Source of the DNA: Anaerocolumna aminovalerica
Lineage (GTDB): Bacteria > Bacillota > Clostridia > Lachnospirales > Lachnospiraceae
Assembly (NCBI RefSeq): GCF_900115365.1
Contig: NZ_FOWD01000016.1
Location: 1-64,000 of the forward strand
Direction of reading: 5' to 3'
DNA length: 64,000 nt
The stretch's first letter is position 1. Each line of letters begins with the position of its first letter. This document shows, in pieces, positions 1,699-8,292 of the stretch. A program made the position numbers and the translations under genes. The notes beneath the pieces are model-generated. The model had not been told where the DNA came from. It ran no database searches and worked only from the letters and a program-made list of their open reading frames with translations.

Positions 1699-1732
1699 GT
1701 TTTCTCTCCTTCTAATTTTAATATTTATTGTT

Positions 1733-1837
1733 TTATATAGTTAAAGGAATGCAGCAACAGCAACAGGAGCAACAGGAGCAACACATGTAACTATCCTTTT
1801 TATAATTTTTTTGTTTTAATTTAAATATTATTTTCAT
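1733..1837 (-). CDS. cysteine-rich leader peptide upstream of the cystine symporter
   Basis: A 34-codon ORF with a textbook AGGAGG 8 nt before its ATG. Residues 1-18 are lysine-rich; residues 19-29 are CCSCCSCCCCC (nine Cys, two Ser), followed by IPLTI and stop. It lies between a consensus promoter and the symporter, 34 nt before the symporter ATG, in the same direction. Such runs of a pathway amino acid are the hallmark of ribosome-stalling leader peptides; poly-cysteine leader ORFs acting as cysteine-responsive attenuators are known in mycobacteria. The two TCC Ser codons create CTCCT (minus strand, 1774-1778 and 1765-1769), complementary to the AGGAG of the symporter ribosome site (1706-1710). 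Function is inferred; codons, position and complementarity are seen directly. Confidence 0.85.
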   Translation of the reverse strand: MKIIFKLKQKNYKKDSYMCCSCCSCCCCCIPLTI

Positions 1838-1895
1838 AAAAATTACCTCCTGTTATAATATATACCATTCATATATGTTTAGTATGATTAAGATT

Positions 1896-1925
1896 ATTAT
1901 ATGCAAGGACAATATGATTTGTCAA
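1896..1925 (-). promoter_or_regulatory. sigma-A-type promoter for leader ORF and symporter
   Basis: On the minus strand, TTGACA (1920-1925), an 18-nt spacer and TATAAT (1896-1901): both hexamers are perfect consensus. The predicted transcript starts near 1889, about 50 nt before the leader ATG. Because the promoter is so strong, regulation is expected after initiation, which fits the leader peptide. Confidence 0.8.
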
Positions 1926-3126: not shown

Positions 3127-6100
3127 TCAATTCGTAGGTTCAAATCCTTTGTTCTGGGTCTGATTACAAAATATCTGAACTTGATTTTTAAATTCGTCTG
3201 CAAGATACTGTATTGTTTTCTGACTATGTATTTTAGAACAATAATGAATCTTTACATATAATTCATTATCTTGTGTTCTTCTAACAACCAAATCTAAAAC
3301 ACGTTTTCTATTTTTTTGCGGATCTTCCATTAATCCTATATTTTGAGATGACTTGGCTATCTTGTAACCTGAGTCTTCAAATAGAGTAGTGTTAGTGTTT
3401 ACCTGATAATAGTTAAATGTTATATTCGGAAGTTCTTTTTTACTTAATTCTTCATCTTTATTAATATACTTTAAGCATACAAAACTGATTCCGCCATGTG
3501 GTATTGATTGTACTGCAGTTTTAACCTGGTGAATAATTTCAAAACTTGTATTTTTGCCCTTTAAGCTTATTTTAACAGGTACATTAAAAGCAATCCAACC
3601 TATAGTTCTTGAAAGATCATAATCGGAGTCGGCTTGTATACCACGACGGCCATTTAAGGTATAGGATAAATTTATTTCATCTTGCTGTGTCCATTTTCTT
3701 ATAGTTTCTGACCATGCTGCCAGAAGTTTATATTGTAGCTCTTTTGCATCTTTTAAATCATCCACTCTGCATAATAAGAATTCGTGTATCTTTTCGTAAA
3801 TCATAATATTATCTTTCGGACTCCAGTCATAATCACTTGGGATTATATTATCTGAATTGCAAGTCTGTTTCCAATAATCAATATCTGCTATGCATTCCTT
3901 ATCGAAGGCGAATTTATTTACGATAGCACTCCATTGTTTCAGGGAAGTAGTCTTTTTTTTCAATATATATTCACTTTTATTCACAACTACTGTTCTGTAA
4001 ATATCCAGGAAATCCTCCATGAACTTACCTATGGAATAAGCATCACCTAAAACATGATGCCACATAACAAGTAATTTTCCGTAATCCTCATCTTCTTTAT
4101 AAAAGGCAACCATCTTAAGAGGGCACCGGGTAATATCCAGAGTCTCCTGATACTTAGCAAAAACAGGCTCCAAGTTCTCTTCATCTTTATATCTGATTGT
4201 TTCAATGCAAACACTCTCTTCAACTTCAGCAATATATTCCCTTATGTTTGAACCTTCAATTTTAAATCTATAACGCAATCCATCATGTTGCATAATAAGA
4301 TATCTCAAGATATTTTTTAAAGTTTCGATGTCGGGTATTGGGCTCAAATCTAATAAACTACTGAAGTTCCATTGATTGATATGCTTATTGTGCAATATAC
4401 TATAATGGAGTGGCAAAGGGTCTACAAAGCCAACAGCCACTTCTTGTTCTGTTATAATAGAATCTCCCTTTGATTCCGCTTTCTTAGCCAACTCAGCTAT
4501 TGTTGGGTGTGAAAAGAAATATTCTGAAGATATGTATAAATTTATTTTATTTAGTTGTATAACACATTCAAATACTCCAAGAGAGTCTCCCCCCATCTTA
4601 AAAAATGAAGTGTGTATATCGTAAACAGGTACATTCAGAACACTTTCCCAAACTTTTGCAATTTGAATCTCCATGTCAGAAGACGGTTTTTCATGTTTTA
4701 CAGTTTCCGGTTCACTTACTTTAATTATTTCTTTAGAAAATTGAACCTGATATCTCTGCTTTTTACCACTTACTGTTTTGGGTATGCTCTCAATAACGAA
4801 TACATCCGACAGCTTACTGCCGGTATATGTCTCAAATGCTTTTTCAATTTCTTTACAAACCATTGGATCCTTTATATATAATTCTTTTAGAACATATAGT
4901 TGTACTAATTCGTTACTTTGGGAATCTAATGTTGAAGTAATTACAAAATAATCTGCAGGTATATGCAGCATTTCTTCTATTTTCATTTCAATATCCTGAG
5001 CATAATAATTTTTTGCATTGATGATAATCATATCTTTTTTACGCCCAAGTATTACTACTCCTTCCTCCATTACAATACCAATATCGCCAGTCTTAAGTTT
5101 TCCATTCTTTACAACGTCCGAACTGTCAATTCCCAGATAACTTTTCATAACACTTTCTGATTCAACAACGAGTTCACCAATTTTTCCATTTTCTTGTCTT
5201 TCTTCCTGATCATTTATAGTATATACATTTACGCCTTCTAAAGCTTGTCCATTCAAAACAATCTCTCTATCATCAATATATATTGTTTTAATACCTTGTT
5301 TTCTTGGCTGAAGACTTACAAGCAGAGAGGATTCTGCTAATCCATAACCACAACAAATTGTATTTTCTTTTAACCCACAAGATTTCATTTGTGTTAAAAA
5401 GTCCCTTACTAGTTTTGGGTTAATATGCTCTGCTCCCATACAGATAGTGTTAATAGTGGAAAAATCTAATGTTTCCAGCTCTTGGCTCTTCATTTTTGCT
5501 AATATCCATCTCATTAAGAAAGTCGGACATGATATCCCGGTTATATTTTGTACTTTAATTTGCCTAAGAATATATGTAGTGTATTGAATTAAACACTGGG
5601 GAGATAAAAGGAATTGTTCCATACCCGCAAAAAGTGGCATAAGATGCATACCAATAAGTCCCATGTTATGGGTTAATGGCAGCCACCCCATCATTCTTTC
5701 CTTTTTAATATCTTCCACACCTCCAAATCTTTCTATCATGGAAGTTATATTTGAGCATATGTTTTTATGAGAGAGACATACCCCCTTTGGATTTGCTGTA
5801 CTACCTGATGAAAATTGTATATAGGCTACATCCTCCCTGGAAGGAATAAGAGGTAAATTTGAACTTTCATTATAACTGATGTTTTCAATTGCATAAATCA
5901 TATTTTTACATTCTAATTGCTGCTTAAGTTCTTTCTCATACTGTCCTTCTGTAATTATAATATAGTTATTTAAATTAGTGATAATATTTTTTAAATTAGT
6001 GGCACTAAAGCCCTTTTCATCATTAACAGTTAGAGGAACAGGAATACAGCCCAGTAAAATGGAACCCCAGAAAGCTTTTATAAATAATTCTGGATCTTTT

Positions 6101-6300
6101 AGCTGTAATATAACATAGGTTCCTTTTCTAATATTTAGATTGTCTAATCCACCTGAAACACTTAATGAATCCATCATTAATTCATTATAAGTTATTTTTT
6201 TAGTTTCCATCCCCTTATAAAAAGTAATTCCACAAGCAGTTCTAATACTTTCTTTTGATGCAGCTAATAAAGCTTCAACTAATGTGCTATACAAATTCAT
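3127..6300 (-). CDS. stand-alone NRPS-like protein: adenylation-carrier-condensation
   Basis: A 1057-residue multidomain protein. Residues 1-520 form an AMP-binding domain: phosphate loop FSSGSTANPKG (163-173), GYGLAESSLL (318-327), LKTGDIG (402-408) and PKTVSGKKQ (508-515), resembling fatty-acyl/aryl-AMP ligases. A carrier domain follows with FFKMGGDSL, pantetheine site Ser573. Residues about 625-1040 are a condensation/epimerisation-type domain; its active-site motif reads HHVLGDA (748-754), an HHxxxDG variant with Ala last, but the catalytic His is kept. No thioesterase or reductase domain and no other synthetase gene are nearby. It probably activates an acyl or amino acid, loads it on the carrier and condenses it with another molecule; substrates unknown. 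Confidence 0.8.
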   Translation of the reverse strand: MNLYSTLVEALLAASKESIRTACGITFYKGMETKKITYNELMMDSLSVSGGLDNLNIRKGTYVILQLKDPELFIKAFWGSILLGCIPVPLTVNDEKGFSATNLKNIITNLNNYIIITEGQYEKELKQQLECKNMIYAIENISYNESSNLPLIPSREDVAYIQFSSGSTANPKGVCLSHKNICSNITSMIERFGGVEDIKKERMMGWLPLTHNMGLIGMHLMPLFAGMEQFLLSPQCLIQYTTYILRQIKVQNITGISCPTFLMRWILAKMKSQELETLDFSTINTICMGAEHINPKLVRDFLTQMKSCGLKENTICCGYGLAESSLLVSLQPRKQGIKTIYIDDREIVLNGQALEGVNVYTINDQEERQENGKIGELVVESESVMKSYLGIDSSDVVKNGKLKTGDIGIVMEEGVVILGRKKDMIIINAKNYYAQDIEMKIEEMLHIPADYFVITSTLDSQSNELVQLYVLKELYIKDPMVCKEIEKAFETYTGSKLSDVFVIESIPKTVSGKKQRYQVQFSKEIIKVSEPETVKHEKPSSDMEIQIAKVWESVLNVPVYDIHTSFFKMGGDSLGVFECVIQLNKINLYISSEYFFSHPTIAELAKKAESKGDSIITEQEVAVGFVDPLPLHYSILHNKHINQWNFSSLLDLSPIPDIETLKNILRYLIMQHDGLRYRFKIEGSNIREYIAEVEESVCIETIRYKDEENLEPVFAKYQETLDITRCPLKMVAFYKEDEDYGKLLVMWHHVLGDAYSIGKFMEDFLDIYRTVVVNKSEYILKKKTTSLKQWSAIVNKFAFDKECIADIDYWKQTCNSDNIIPSDYDWSPKDNIMIYEKIHEFLLCRVDDLKDAKELQYKLLAAWSETIRKWTQQDEINLSYTLNGRRGIQADSDYDLSRTIGWIAFNVPVKISLKGKNTSFEIIHQVKTAVQSIPHGGISFVCLKYINKDEELSKKELPNITFNYYQVNTNTTLFEDSGYKIAKSSQNIGLMEDPQKNRKRVLDLVVRRTQDNELYVKIHYCSKIHSQKTIQYLADEFKNQVQIFCNQTQNKGFEPTN

Positions 6301-6876: not shown

Positions 6877-8292
6877 TTAATTTGTCGCTTTCTTTGACAA
6901 CCATACTCCTGATTGATATCGTAAATAAAAAATCAACGCCCGTACCGCCCATTCAAATCCCATGCAGATCCAAACGCCCTGGACACCAAAGCCAAGTGTG
7001 ATTGTAAATATATAACCAAGACCTACACGGACAACCCACATAGTAATCAGAGATACCACTGAACTAAACGTTGCATCCCCGGCTGAACGAAGAACACATG
7101 GCATAACATAGGAATATGACCAAAAAAAAGGCATAGGGATTATACCTATAAGCAGTAGCCTATAAATTATAGAAAGGGTTTCTTCCGGTGCCTGATACAA
7201 ATTTAATATTACAGGCATCAACGGAAATAGTACAATGATTGAAGCTAAAGAGAATACAGTTCCTAGCCTAACCATTTTTATACCGTAATATCGTGCCAAT
7301 GCATCGTCATCAGCACCTATACATTGTCCCACAATGGTAGTCGCTAAAATACCTACACCAAGGCCTGCAGAATATAGAATAGAAAATGCTGAATTTGCAA
7401 TGGCATTTGCCGCTATATTTATTGTACCAAGATGCACAATATAGGTTTGTACAATCATACTCCCGCCGTTAAAAAATACCTGCTCCAGTGCAAAAGGAAT
7501 ACCAATTTTGAAAACTGATTTTAAAATCGGTCTGTGGATTTTAAAAATATTCTGAGGATATATTCGTAATATACTCTTGGGGCGCATTAGTATCCAGACA
7601 GCTACAACACTGCCAATTAGCCGAGCTATGTTCAGCGAAAGGGTTGTTCCAAAGATATCAAGATGCATAACATTCAGAAACAACATACTTGCTAACAAAT
7701 GTATCACATTAATAATTATGGTTAGCCTTAAACATATCTTTGTGGCACCCATACCACGAAATACTGCAAATGCCCCCATATAAAGAGAAAGAAAAATTTG
7801 TGATATGGCTACACCAATAAGATAGCCCCGTGCTTTATTAATAACAATTGGATCAGCCGCACCAAACATACGATTCACCAGTACATCTGAAAACCCTACA
7901 AGTATTACACATGATACAATCGCCACTAAAAATGTAGCCAACATGACCTGCCCTGCTGCATCTTTGATTTTTGCTTCATTACCACTTCCCTTATACTGTG
8001 CAACAACTACTGTACCACCTACCGAAATTGCACTAAAAACAGCCCATATTATCAAAGACAATGGGTTTATCATACTGACTGCTGAAACAGATTCCTGACT
8101 GGAAGAACTTATCATAGCAGTTGTCACCAAACCGATTATATTTATGAAAAATTGATCCAATATAAGGGGGATTAACATCATAAAAATCTTTTTATATGTA
8201 AACAGCATACTGCCAAATTGTCGTTCTAAAAAAAGATCAACTTTTGAGCCTTGGATCAATAGCTTCATTTTATGTCTCATATTAATCTGCAT
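6877..8292 (-). CDS. MATE family efflux transporter
   Basis: A 471-residue protein with about twelve hydrophobic segments and the two-fold arrangement of MATE antiporters, which export cationic drugs or metabolites in exchange for Na+ or H+. Family-like stretches include PLILDQFFINIIGLVTTAM, MINPLSLIIWAVFSAISVGG, VAQYKG and, in the second half, GIPFALEQVFFNGG. The start follows AAAGGAGAG. It lies upstream of the NRPS-like gene on the same strand but 575 nt away, so co-transcription is not assured; export of that protein's product is an attractive but unproven role. Confidence 0.88.
   Translation of the reverse strand: MQINMRHKMKLLIQGSKVDLFLERQFGSMLFTYKKIFMMLIPLILDQFFINIIGLVTTAMISSSSQESVSAVSMINPLSLIIWAVFSAISVGGTVVVAQYKGSGNEAKIKDAAGQVMLATFLVAIVSCVILVGFSDVLVNRMFGAADPIVINKARGYLIGVAISQIFLSLYMGAFAVFRGMGATKICLRLTIIINVIHLLASMLFLNVMHLDIFGTTLSLNIARLIGSVVAVWILMRPKSILRIYPQNIFKIHRPILKSVFKIGIPFALEQVFFNGGSMIVQTYIVHLGTINIAANAIANSAFSILYSAGLGVGILATTIVGQCIGADDDALARYYGIKMVRLGTVFSLASIIVLFPLMPVILNLYQAPEETLSIIYRLLLIGIIPMPFFWSYSYVMPCVLRSAGDATFSSVVSLITMWVVRVGLGYIFTITLGFGVQGVWICMGFEWAVRALIFYLRYQSGVWLSKKATN

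Follow-up and report, generated by a model that had tools for sequence, protein, structure and literature searches.

A conserved cysteine-rich leader ORF in front of a probable cyst(e)ine symporter gene of Lachnospiraceae: a putative ribosome-mediated cysteine sensor

A probable cyst(e)ine uptake gene lies in the window (the whole 64-kb stretch of DNA analysed here), and its mRNA leader probably acts as a cis-acting, ribosome-mediated cysteine sensor, which would be layered on a putative CymR-like operator. In the mechanism that we favour, a ribosome stalled for want of cysteine would keep the starts of both the leader ORF and the transporter gene available, and once it clears the leader, an anti-Shine-Dalgarno (anti-SD) word would fold mainly onto the leader start, with a fall of output. 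This reading is supported by the presence of such leaders in all ten orthologous loci and by two further ones, found before a cysteine-synthesis gene.

All elements of the leader and the transporter lie on the minus strand (Table 1). The preliminary description of this region had listed a 34-codon ORF preceded by AGGAGG, Cys at nine of eleven consecutive codons, a promoter, CTCCT words and a short gap to the transporter gene, and each of these elements was found on that strand, the gap between the leader stop and the symporter ATG being 34 nt. The transcription start is a prediction made from the sequence on the assumption that it lies ~6 nt downstream of the -10 box, which places it ~50 nt upstream of the leader ATG. 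It had also been stated that no terminator fits into the 34-nt gap, and our search of the gap for a terminator-like hairpin with a T-run indeed returned none.

Table 1. Positions of the leader elements and the symporter gene in the window, and of the two sulfhydrylase genes preceded by poly-Cys leaders
Feature	Position	Strand	Remark
-35 box TTGACA	1920..1925	-	sequence
-10 box TATAAT	1896..1901	-	18-nt spacer from -35 box
Putative operator ATCATACTAAACATATATGAATG, inverted repeat at the predicted transcription start	1866..1888	-	CymR/Rrf2-like role inferred
Leader ORF Shine-Dalgarno AGGAGG	1846..1851	-	SD energy -9.8; predicted partner: anti-SD word of the Cys run
Cys-rich leader ORF, 34 codons, peptide MKIIFKLKQKNYKKDSYMCCSCCSCCCCCIPLTI	1733..1837	-	counterparts in 10/10 orthologous loci
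Internal Shine-Dalgarno AAAAGGATA	1792..1800	-	ends 5 nt before the codon preceding the first Cys codon
Nested in-frame ATG abutting the Cys run; possible second start	1784..1786	-	
Cys run CCSCCSCCCCC, 9 Cys in 11 codons	1751..1783	-	
Two anti-SD words CTCCT, formed via TCC Ser codons	1778-1774 and 1769-1765	-	first copy is the conserved one
Symporter Shine-Dalgarno AAGGAG	1706..1711	-	
SDF-family symporter, TcyP-like, 432 aa	400..1698	-	PF00375
Sulfhydrylase gene behind the L107 leader	L107:134-1417	-	
Sulfhydrylase gene behind the L113 leader	L113:126-1433	-	

Cysteine accounts for 172 of the 11,528 codons in the 27 ORFs of the window. A chance origin of the Cys run was rejected, as at least 9 Cys in 11 codons would be expected ~2e-8 times per 4.6-Mb genome when both strands are counted. 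A stronger test of the reality of the leader than this figure is its conservation. None of the Rfam RNA families, T-box included, matched the 64-kb window at the gathering score, and the leader peptide matched no known protein family up to E 0.1.

Loci for comparison were collected by whole-genome searches and by one scan of named genomes. The orthologous set comprises 10 distinct loci with a transporter identity of at least 73% and usable upstream sequence, i.e. L001 (the window), L002 (=L031), L003 (=L036), L032, L033, L034, L035, L037, L040 and L047, the last of which is an N-terminal fragment (78% identity over 112 residues) that was counted; L041 and L051, both C-terminal fragments, lack upstream sequence, and L041 was left uncounted. 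As the loci are related, all pooled and naive probabilities given below overstate their independence. The preliminary description had made its reading depend on the presence of a Cys-rich ORF at this position in related genomes, and such an ORF does lie between the promoter and the transporter gene in 10 of the 10 loci. These leader ORFs are 23-43 codons long, all are SD-led, their runs contain 4 to 9 Cys, and they are separated from the transporter gene by 34 to 167 nt. Every one of them has in front of it a TTGACA box and, at a spacing of 17-18 nt, TATAAT (TAAAAT in L040). Several leaders have more than one in-frame ATG, and the one with a good SD before it was chosen as the start; counted from this SD-led ATG, the first Cys codon follows after 51-57 nt in all ten loci, the run thus beginning after 17-19 leader codons. 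Judged by eye, the only conserved parts are the Cys run, a single Ser codon and features at the RNA level, and the N-terminal 17-19 codons diverge.

Among those examined of the more distant relatives, with no more than 58% identity (L004-L030, L042-L045, L050), no such leader was found; three members of this set (L009, L017 and L018) have merely 118-234 nt of upstream sequence. Short Cys-containing frames were noticed upstream of two distant SDF relatives, L006 (CQLCCSQC) and L021 (CCFC), and were judged unlike the leader, with no clear leader architecture around them. Two pattern searches were set aside: a generic leader pattern, TGYTGYNNNTGYTGY (four genomes), gave 47 matches in the genome of the window, 3 of them in the leader, against 5 for the reversed control pattern, and a narrower one, ATGTGYTGYTCNTGYTGYTGYTGY, which by construction misses the window's own leader, matched in 1 of 397 genomes. 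In L003, a member of the orthologous set, no SD can be recognised near the start of the transporter gene; an AAAGGA is located ~45-50 nt upstream, and the initiation of its transporter may differ from that at the other loci.

A sequence-only leader model was built on ten sequences (the underlying alignment has L034 shifted at its 5' end; in a second leader alignment L034 is partly misaligned, and no count is based on it) and run on 397 genomes of the family, 64 of which contained a match at E <=0.01. Among the 72 matches listed, 30 were taken as loci, including 27 non-training ones. The three training members present in the 397-genome set scored E 3.7e-16 or better, and the next match 1.4e-5. 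Poly-Cys leaders on the matching strand were recovered at two of the 27 non-training loci, namely L107 (leader MAKILIDFDRHNFRNGRMRCCCCCR, E 1.4e-5, 76 nt from the gene) and L113 (leader MNLVNSKRKFIHKDDRMCMCCCCRENI, E 8.4e-4, 53 nt from the gene). Both directly precede a gene for O-acetylhomoserine/O-acetylserine sulfhydrylase (TIGR01326, 628.4 and 630.1 bits, respectively; cut-off 495.1), a cysteine-synthesis gene, in two other genomes of the family. The model favours TGY repeats and is blind to the identity of the downstream gene. The distance from the SD-led ATG to the first Cys codon is 57 nt in L107 and 51 nt in L113. The weak matches L109, L119, L121 and L129, where Cys-rich frames overlap or adjoin other genes, were judged to be chance. 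The sulfhydrylase genes of the window's own genome, G397 and G127 (L096, L097, L057) showed no Cys-run ORF in the 330 nt checked. By eye, the L107 promoter also carries a TCCTA...TAGGA dyad.

A second conserved feature is an SD-like element inside the leader ORF. In each of the ten orthologous leaders the strongest SD-like stretch within the ORF ends 3-10 nt before the codon preceding the first Cys codon, and the pooled energy of these ten elements is -69.6, compared with -17.8 +/- 6.3 for a codon-shuffle null, none of 400 shuffles being as strong. Taken singly, the element of the window is significant (P 0.005), and those of L040 (P 0.26) and L035 (P 0.085) miss the 0.05 level; in the two sulfhydrylase leaders, which are outside the ten-leader pool, it is weak (P 0.165 for L107 and 0.125 for L113). 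An ATG is located directly before the Cys run, or one codon before it, in 8 of the 10 leaders, L035 and L040 having none. From its position, the internal SD would be suited to park a ribosome whose A site is occupied by the first Cys codon.

The symporter had been described as a TcyP-like cystine transporter. The SDF domain is present (PF00375, 359.8 bits; cut-off 27.9). In a comparison with four proteins of E. coli, TcyP scores best (167 bits, versus 132 for GltP, 106 for DctA and 57 for SstT), but at an identity of 30%. Cystine as its substrate is a likely assignment drawn from distant similarity and context. No NCBIfam model scored above its cut-off on the symporter. In the tree, which omits copies (L001, L031, L036, L038, L039) and fragments (L041, L047, L051) and in which the Herbinix relatives are labelled Lachnospiraceae, the symporter groups with the TcyP of E. 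coli (96/98, subject to a warning of long branches), and the nine leader-bearing transporters form one clade (99/99). The label of the Herbinix relatives and G127, a genome of the same family that carries the locus of Lachnoclostridium phytofermentans KNHs2131 at matching coordinates, point to Lachnospiraceae as the family of the window's genome. Leader, operator and tree, taken together, make cyst(e)ine the likely substrate.

A further layer of control is suggested by a dyad with the consensus TTCATACTAAACATATATGAATA, which overlaps the predicted transcription start in all ten orthologous loci with 0-6 mismatches to a consensus drawn from the same loci on which it was scored. The observed match was reached in 0 of 500 shuffles for nine loci and in 1 of 500 for L034. 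At up to 3 mismatches the motif has one match in the window's own genome and six in five genomes, three of the six at the transporter promoter, with none for the reversed control. In G127 a copy with 2 mismatches precedes an O-acetylhomoserine sulfhydrylase gene lying after an Rrf2 gene, and the best specific NCBIfam score of this Rrf2 regulator is to CymR (135.6 bits, below the cut-off of 195). The sulfhydrylase gene of the window's own genome is likewise found beside an Rrf2 gene, with a weaker operator match (8 of 23 positions mismatched). We refer to the conserved dyad as a putative CymR-like operator. Two more copies, each with 3 mismatches, were noted before a ThiF/MoeB-like gene (L060, G127:C3:845363-845385) and near an HTH-type gene (L058, G397:C1:1081577-1081599); both genes were named by eye, are not known as sulfur genes, and may or may not belong to the same regulon. 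The 58% relative L050 has a promoter and an operator-like site, which matches the motif with 7 mismatches, and no leader ORF. The operator may therefore be older than the leader, and the arrangement suggests either that one clade gained the leader by insertion between the operator and the gene, or that L050 lost it.

The serine codons of the Cys run are distinctive as well. In all nine leaders having one, the first Ser codon within the run is TCC, compared with 1 of 7 among the other Ser codons of the blocks (Fisher P 0.0009, for related loci that are not independent); TCC makes up 17.3% of the 768 Ser codons in the 27 ORFs of the window. This codon yields a CTCCT or TTCCT anti-SD word in 9 of the 10 tcyP leaders, and L037, L107 and L113 contain no TCC. 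If the footprint of a ribosome is assumed to reach 14 nt upstream and 15 nt downstream from the first base of the P site, the word would be covered when the first Cys codon is in the A site.

As to the pairing partner of this word, whole-leader unconstrained folds place it on the leader's own SD in six loci (L001, L002, L003, L032, L033, L047); in L034 it pairs with the transporter SD, and in L035 and L040 it has other partners. Local folds give the leader-SD pairing in 9 of 9 TCC leaders, L001 using the second copy for part of it; the local leader fold beats mononucleotide shuffles (z < -2) in only 3 of 10 leaders, i.e. L001, L003 and L033. In a duplex test with the SD core fixed, the flanks shuffled 2000 times and L037 excluded for lack of TCC, the Cys blocks paired with the leaders' own start regions at a pooled -118.5 kcal/mol, compared with -95.8 +/- 6.7 for the null, a value reached by 1 of 2000 shuffles; singly, P <=0.05 was obtained at 3 of 9 loci only (L001, L002 and L003, two of which are close relatives). 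Against the transporter start regions the pooled value was -89.3 versus -87.5 for the null, reached by 768 of 2000 shuffles; L003, having no transporter SD, was shuffled whole in this arm, with P 0.016 there alone. The idea that the anti-SD word co-varies locus by locus with one or the other ribosome site was considered and dropped, none of this being detectable when start regions and Cys blocks were swapped between loci (0.30 and 0.73); the Cys blocks are nearly identical. The preliminary description had proposed that the CTCCT words are complementary to the SD of the transporter. The words are indeed present, but their complementarity to that site does not extend beyond the SD core, and the additional complementarity is to the site of the leader itself. 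On the other hand, when leader stretches that start at least 47 nt upstream of the gene are compared for pairing with the transporter start region, the best one overlaps the Cys block in 9 of 9 TCC loci (in L040 via the CCCC after the block and in L035 mostly via bases before TTCC), so that pairing with either ribosome site is possible. The pooled evidence makes the start of the leader itself the first candidate for the partner of the anti-SD word.

The sensor that we propose would operate as follows. With charged tRNA-Cys scarce, a ribosome would park at the first Cys codon and mask the anti-SD word, and the leader start and the transporter start would stay available. With cysteine ample, the ribosome would clear the run and the refolded word would pair chiefly with the ribosome site of the leader itself, which would close the leader; in some species it would pair with the transporter ribosome site as well. 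Output of the transporter would then fall, whether via translation initiation, via Rho or another termination route, or via RNA decay. Of the translation-level attenuation originally suggested, a cysteine-codon leader before a sulfur-uptake gene, the lack of a convincing terminator and a conserved anti-SD word within reach of a ribosome parked at the first Cys codon are retained, but the predicted release of the transporter site is not general.

How far a stalled ribosome would free the transporter site, as the preliminary description assumed, was modelled with the leader start occupied and a ribosome added at the first Cys codon, and the openness of the transporter SD was read at nine tcyP loci having one (L003 is absent). 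Openness rose from 0.05 to 0.52 in L002, from 0.21 to 0.53 in L035, from 0.35 to 0.53 in L037, from 0.18 to 0.34 in L034, from 0.38 to 0.53 in L047 and from 0.75 to 0.80 in L033, and did not change in the window (0.09 to 0.09), L032 and L040. The gain is thus at least 0.15 in 5 of the 9 loci, with a decrease in 0 of 9, but there is none in the window with the ribosome at the first Cys codon; at one position further along the Cys run of the window the SD reaches 0.59, with 0.17-0.25 at its neighbours. The direction of the model mostly agrees with release of the transporter site, and the predicted effect is not general. In the strict form of the model, after clearing the CTCCT words would sequester the transporter ribosome site, which a stalled ribosome would free by translation attenuation. 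This form, one of two main rivals of the sensor proposed here, is conceivable, though we would sooner expect it not to hold. In its favour are the five loci that open on stalling, the overlap of the best partners of the transporter start with the Cys block, and a similar effect of changing TCC to AGT in silico, which raises the openness of the transporter SD by over 0.1 in three (L002, L034, L047) of the 8 loci tested. In the mycobacterial polycysteine precedent, moreover, the downstream ribosome site is reportedly sequestered by mRNA structure, which is blocked by a ribosome in the Cys tract. Against it stand the missing complementarity past the SD core of the transporter, the missing effect in the window, L040 and L032, and the second CTCCT of the window, which a ribosome parked at the first Cys codon would leave exposed. 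Opening is predicted for L037, where CTCCT is missing altogether. In L035 the parked ribosome opens the site but the change of TCC does not, and this change has no opening effect in L040 or L032 either. Without an initiating ribosome, stalling lowers L033 from 0.80 to values down to 0.61, and when the stall is late, the transporter AUG becomes closed in both L001 (0.59 to 0.01) and L002 (0.84 to 0.26). The variable gap of 34 to 167 nt also speaks against strict sequestration, as do the sulfhydrylase leaders, which are almost unaffected by stalling (0.41 to 0.43 in L107, 0.67 to 0.69 in L113).

The leader ribosome might instead act on transcription or RNA stability, i.e. on Rho-dependent termination or on protection of the 5' end from decay, and the CTCCT hairpin would then only close the leader start. 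The extra complementarity of the anti-SD word to the leader's own start and the variable gap length both suit this possibility, which we nevertheless regard as rather doubtful. It also agrees with the scarcity of terminators: 10 of 12 leaders, the window included, have no terminator-like match, and the two weak matches, in L032 (-8.3 kcal/mol, three bases before TATTTGT) and L107 (-6.3, nine bases before ATATTTT), were judged unconvincing, so that the intrinsic terminator between leader and gene typical of trp/his-type attenuators was not found in the 12 leaders. A Rho route was suggested in 2005 for mycobacterial cys leaders as well, according to an excerpt of PMC1262725. The 34-nt gap of the window, however, leaves little room before the transporter, and there is no positive evidence for Rho sites, the count of C being low (4-32 in the 79-212 nt stretches counted). 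A different role for the conserved TCC, as a second sensory codon for serine, the precursor of cysteine, and not as an RNA-pairing element, appears improbable. Serine starvation of B. subtilis does raise ribosome density at UCN Ser and Cys codons and not at AGC/AGU (extracts of PMC3862929), but only TCC among the TCN codons occupies this position in the 9 of 9 leaders, its flanks complement the leader start in the pooled test, and three leaders lack it. It is very unlikely that the signal is a metal or redox one, sensed by a Cys-rich nascent peptide in the manner of CruR/CutF and not by charged tRNA-Cys. Copper genes controlled by Cys-containing upstream ORFs exist, as excerpts of PMC9973294 indicate, and CCSCC also fits a CxxxC pattern. 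However, the run lies at or near the C-terminal end of the peptide and would be largely still inside the ribosome, its number of Cys varies from 4 to 9, and neither of the two kinds of gene downstream is a metal gene, one encoding a probable cyst(e)ine transporter and the other an enzyme of cysteine synthesis. Hardly credible, finally, is a functional Cys-rich microprotein (e.g. a thiol or metal chelator) with no regulatory role, which an SD-led and conserved ORF could encode, as the conserved part is restricted to the run, one Ser codon and RNA-level features, the N-terminal codons diverge, and poly-Cys leaders recur before a different cysteine gene.

The ribosome-mediated sensor favoured here has relatives in other bacteria. 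Canestrari et al. 2020 reportedly described polycysteine leaderless short ORFs in mycobacteria that respond to cysteine. Excerpts of PMC9031893 and PMC9094748, which describe such cysteine-responsive ORFs, bear out the earlier statement that poly-Cys leaders are known in mycobacteria. The window leader resembles them in being a short ORF with contiguous Cys codons ahead of a cysteine-metabolism gene, and the speed of the ribosome on Cys codons is here proposed as the signal, too. The mycobacterial ORFs are leaderless and belong to Actinomycetota, whereas the leader described here is SD-led, with a predicted 5' UTR of ~50 nt, and belongs to Bacillota. It also differs in the internal SD and nested ATG at the Cys run, in the anti-SD word directed toward its own start, in the putative CymR-like operator and in having an SDF-type transporter as its target. 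On its sequence features, the window leader is a Bacillota variant of the mycobacterial polycysteine attenuators. A literature search, covering few subscription papers, found no report of poly-Cys leaders in Bacillota.

Cys-codon leaders before cys and cbs operons were predicted in 2005 in Mycobacterium, Propionibacterium acnes and Bifidobacterium longum (excerpt of PMC1262725); like the present leaders they have Cys runs near the leader stop and no terminator was found, and they differ in phylum and target genes. The uORFC-8-2 before cysS in Rhodobacterales, with two tandem Cys codons and an intrinsic terminator, shares the Cys-codon leader before a cysteine-related gene, but uses transcription attenuation according to PMC8632094, whereas no convincing terminator is seen here. 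For Bacillota, excerpts of PMC2940859 and PMC3828012 name T-boxes, S-boxes, CymR and LysR-type regulators in cysteine control. The T-box(Cys) of Clostridium perfringens, located before cysP1, cysP2 and cysKE, likewise couples tRNA-Cys charging to cyst(e)ine symporters in Bacillota (excerpt of PMC2940859); it is a structured tRNA-binding RNA with a terminator, whereas here the ribosome would be the sensor and no T-box was matched by Rfam. In the Bacillus CymR regulon, which in the extract of PMC3828012 includes tcyP and cysK, an Rrf2 repressor acts on a tcyP-type gene, and a similar site is inferred here at the transporter promoter and the G127 sulfhydrylase promoter; the difference is that the site is a prediction and that the G127 regulator scores below the CymR cut-off.

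If the proposed sensor is real, ribosome-based cysteine sensing would extend to another phylum, for genes of both uptake and synthesis, and the leader would add regulatory evidence for cyst(e)ine import by this SDF clade. It would also offer a compact, easily mutated system for studying how an in-frame SD and a hungry codon park a ribosome. A more elaborate version, which we consider unlikely as a whole, would have the Cys run serve as sensory codons and as an anti-SD for its own start at the same time. Such a leader would be self-gating, a pioneer ribosome, which the internal SD would keep at the first Cys codon, testing tRNA-Cys charging once: if it clears, the leader would shut itself and the transporter would be silenced without a terminator, and if it stalls, both starts would be open. 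Uptake and synthesis genes would then form a cysteine ribosome-regulon of Lachnospiraceae, alongside a CymR-like repressor.

Elsewhere in the window, positions 3127-6300 of the minus strand encode an NRPS-like protein with AMP-binding, carrier and condensation domains, adjoined by a MatE exporter at 6877-8292; no link of these genes to the leader was seen.
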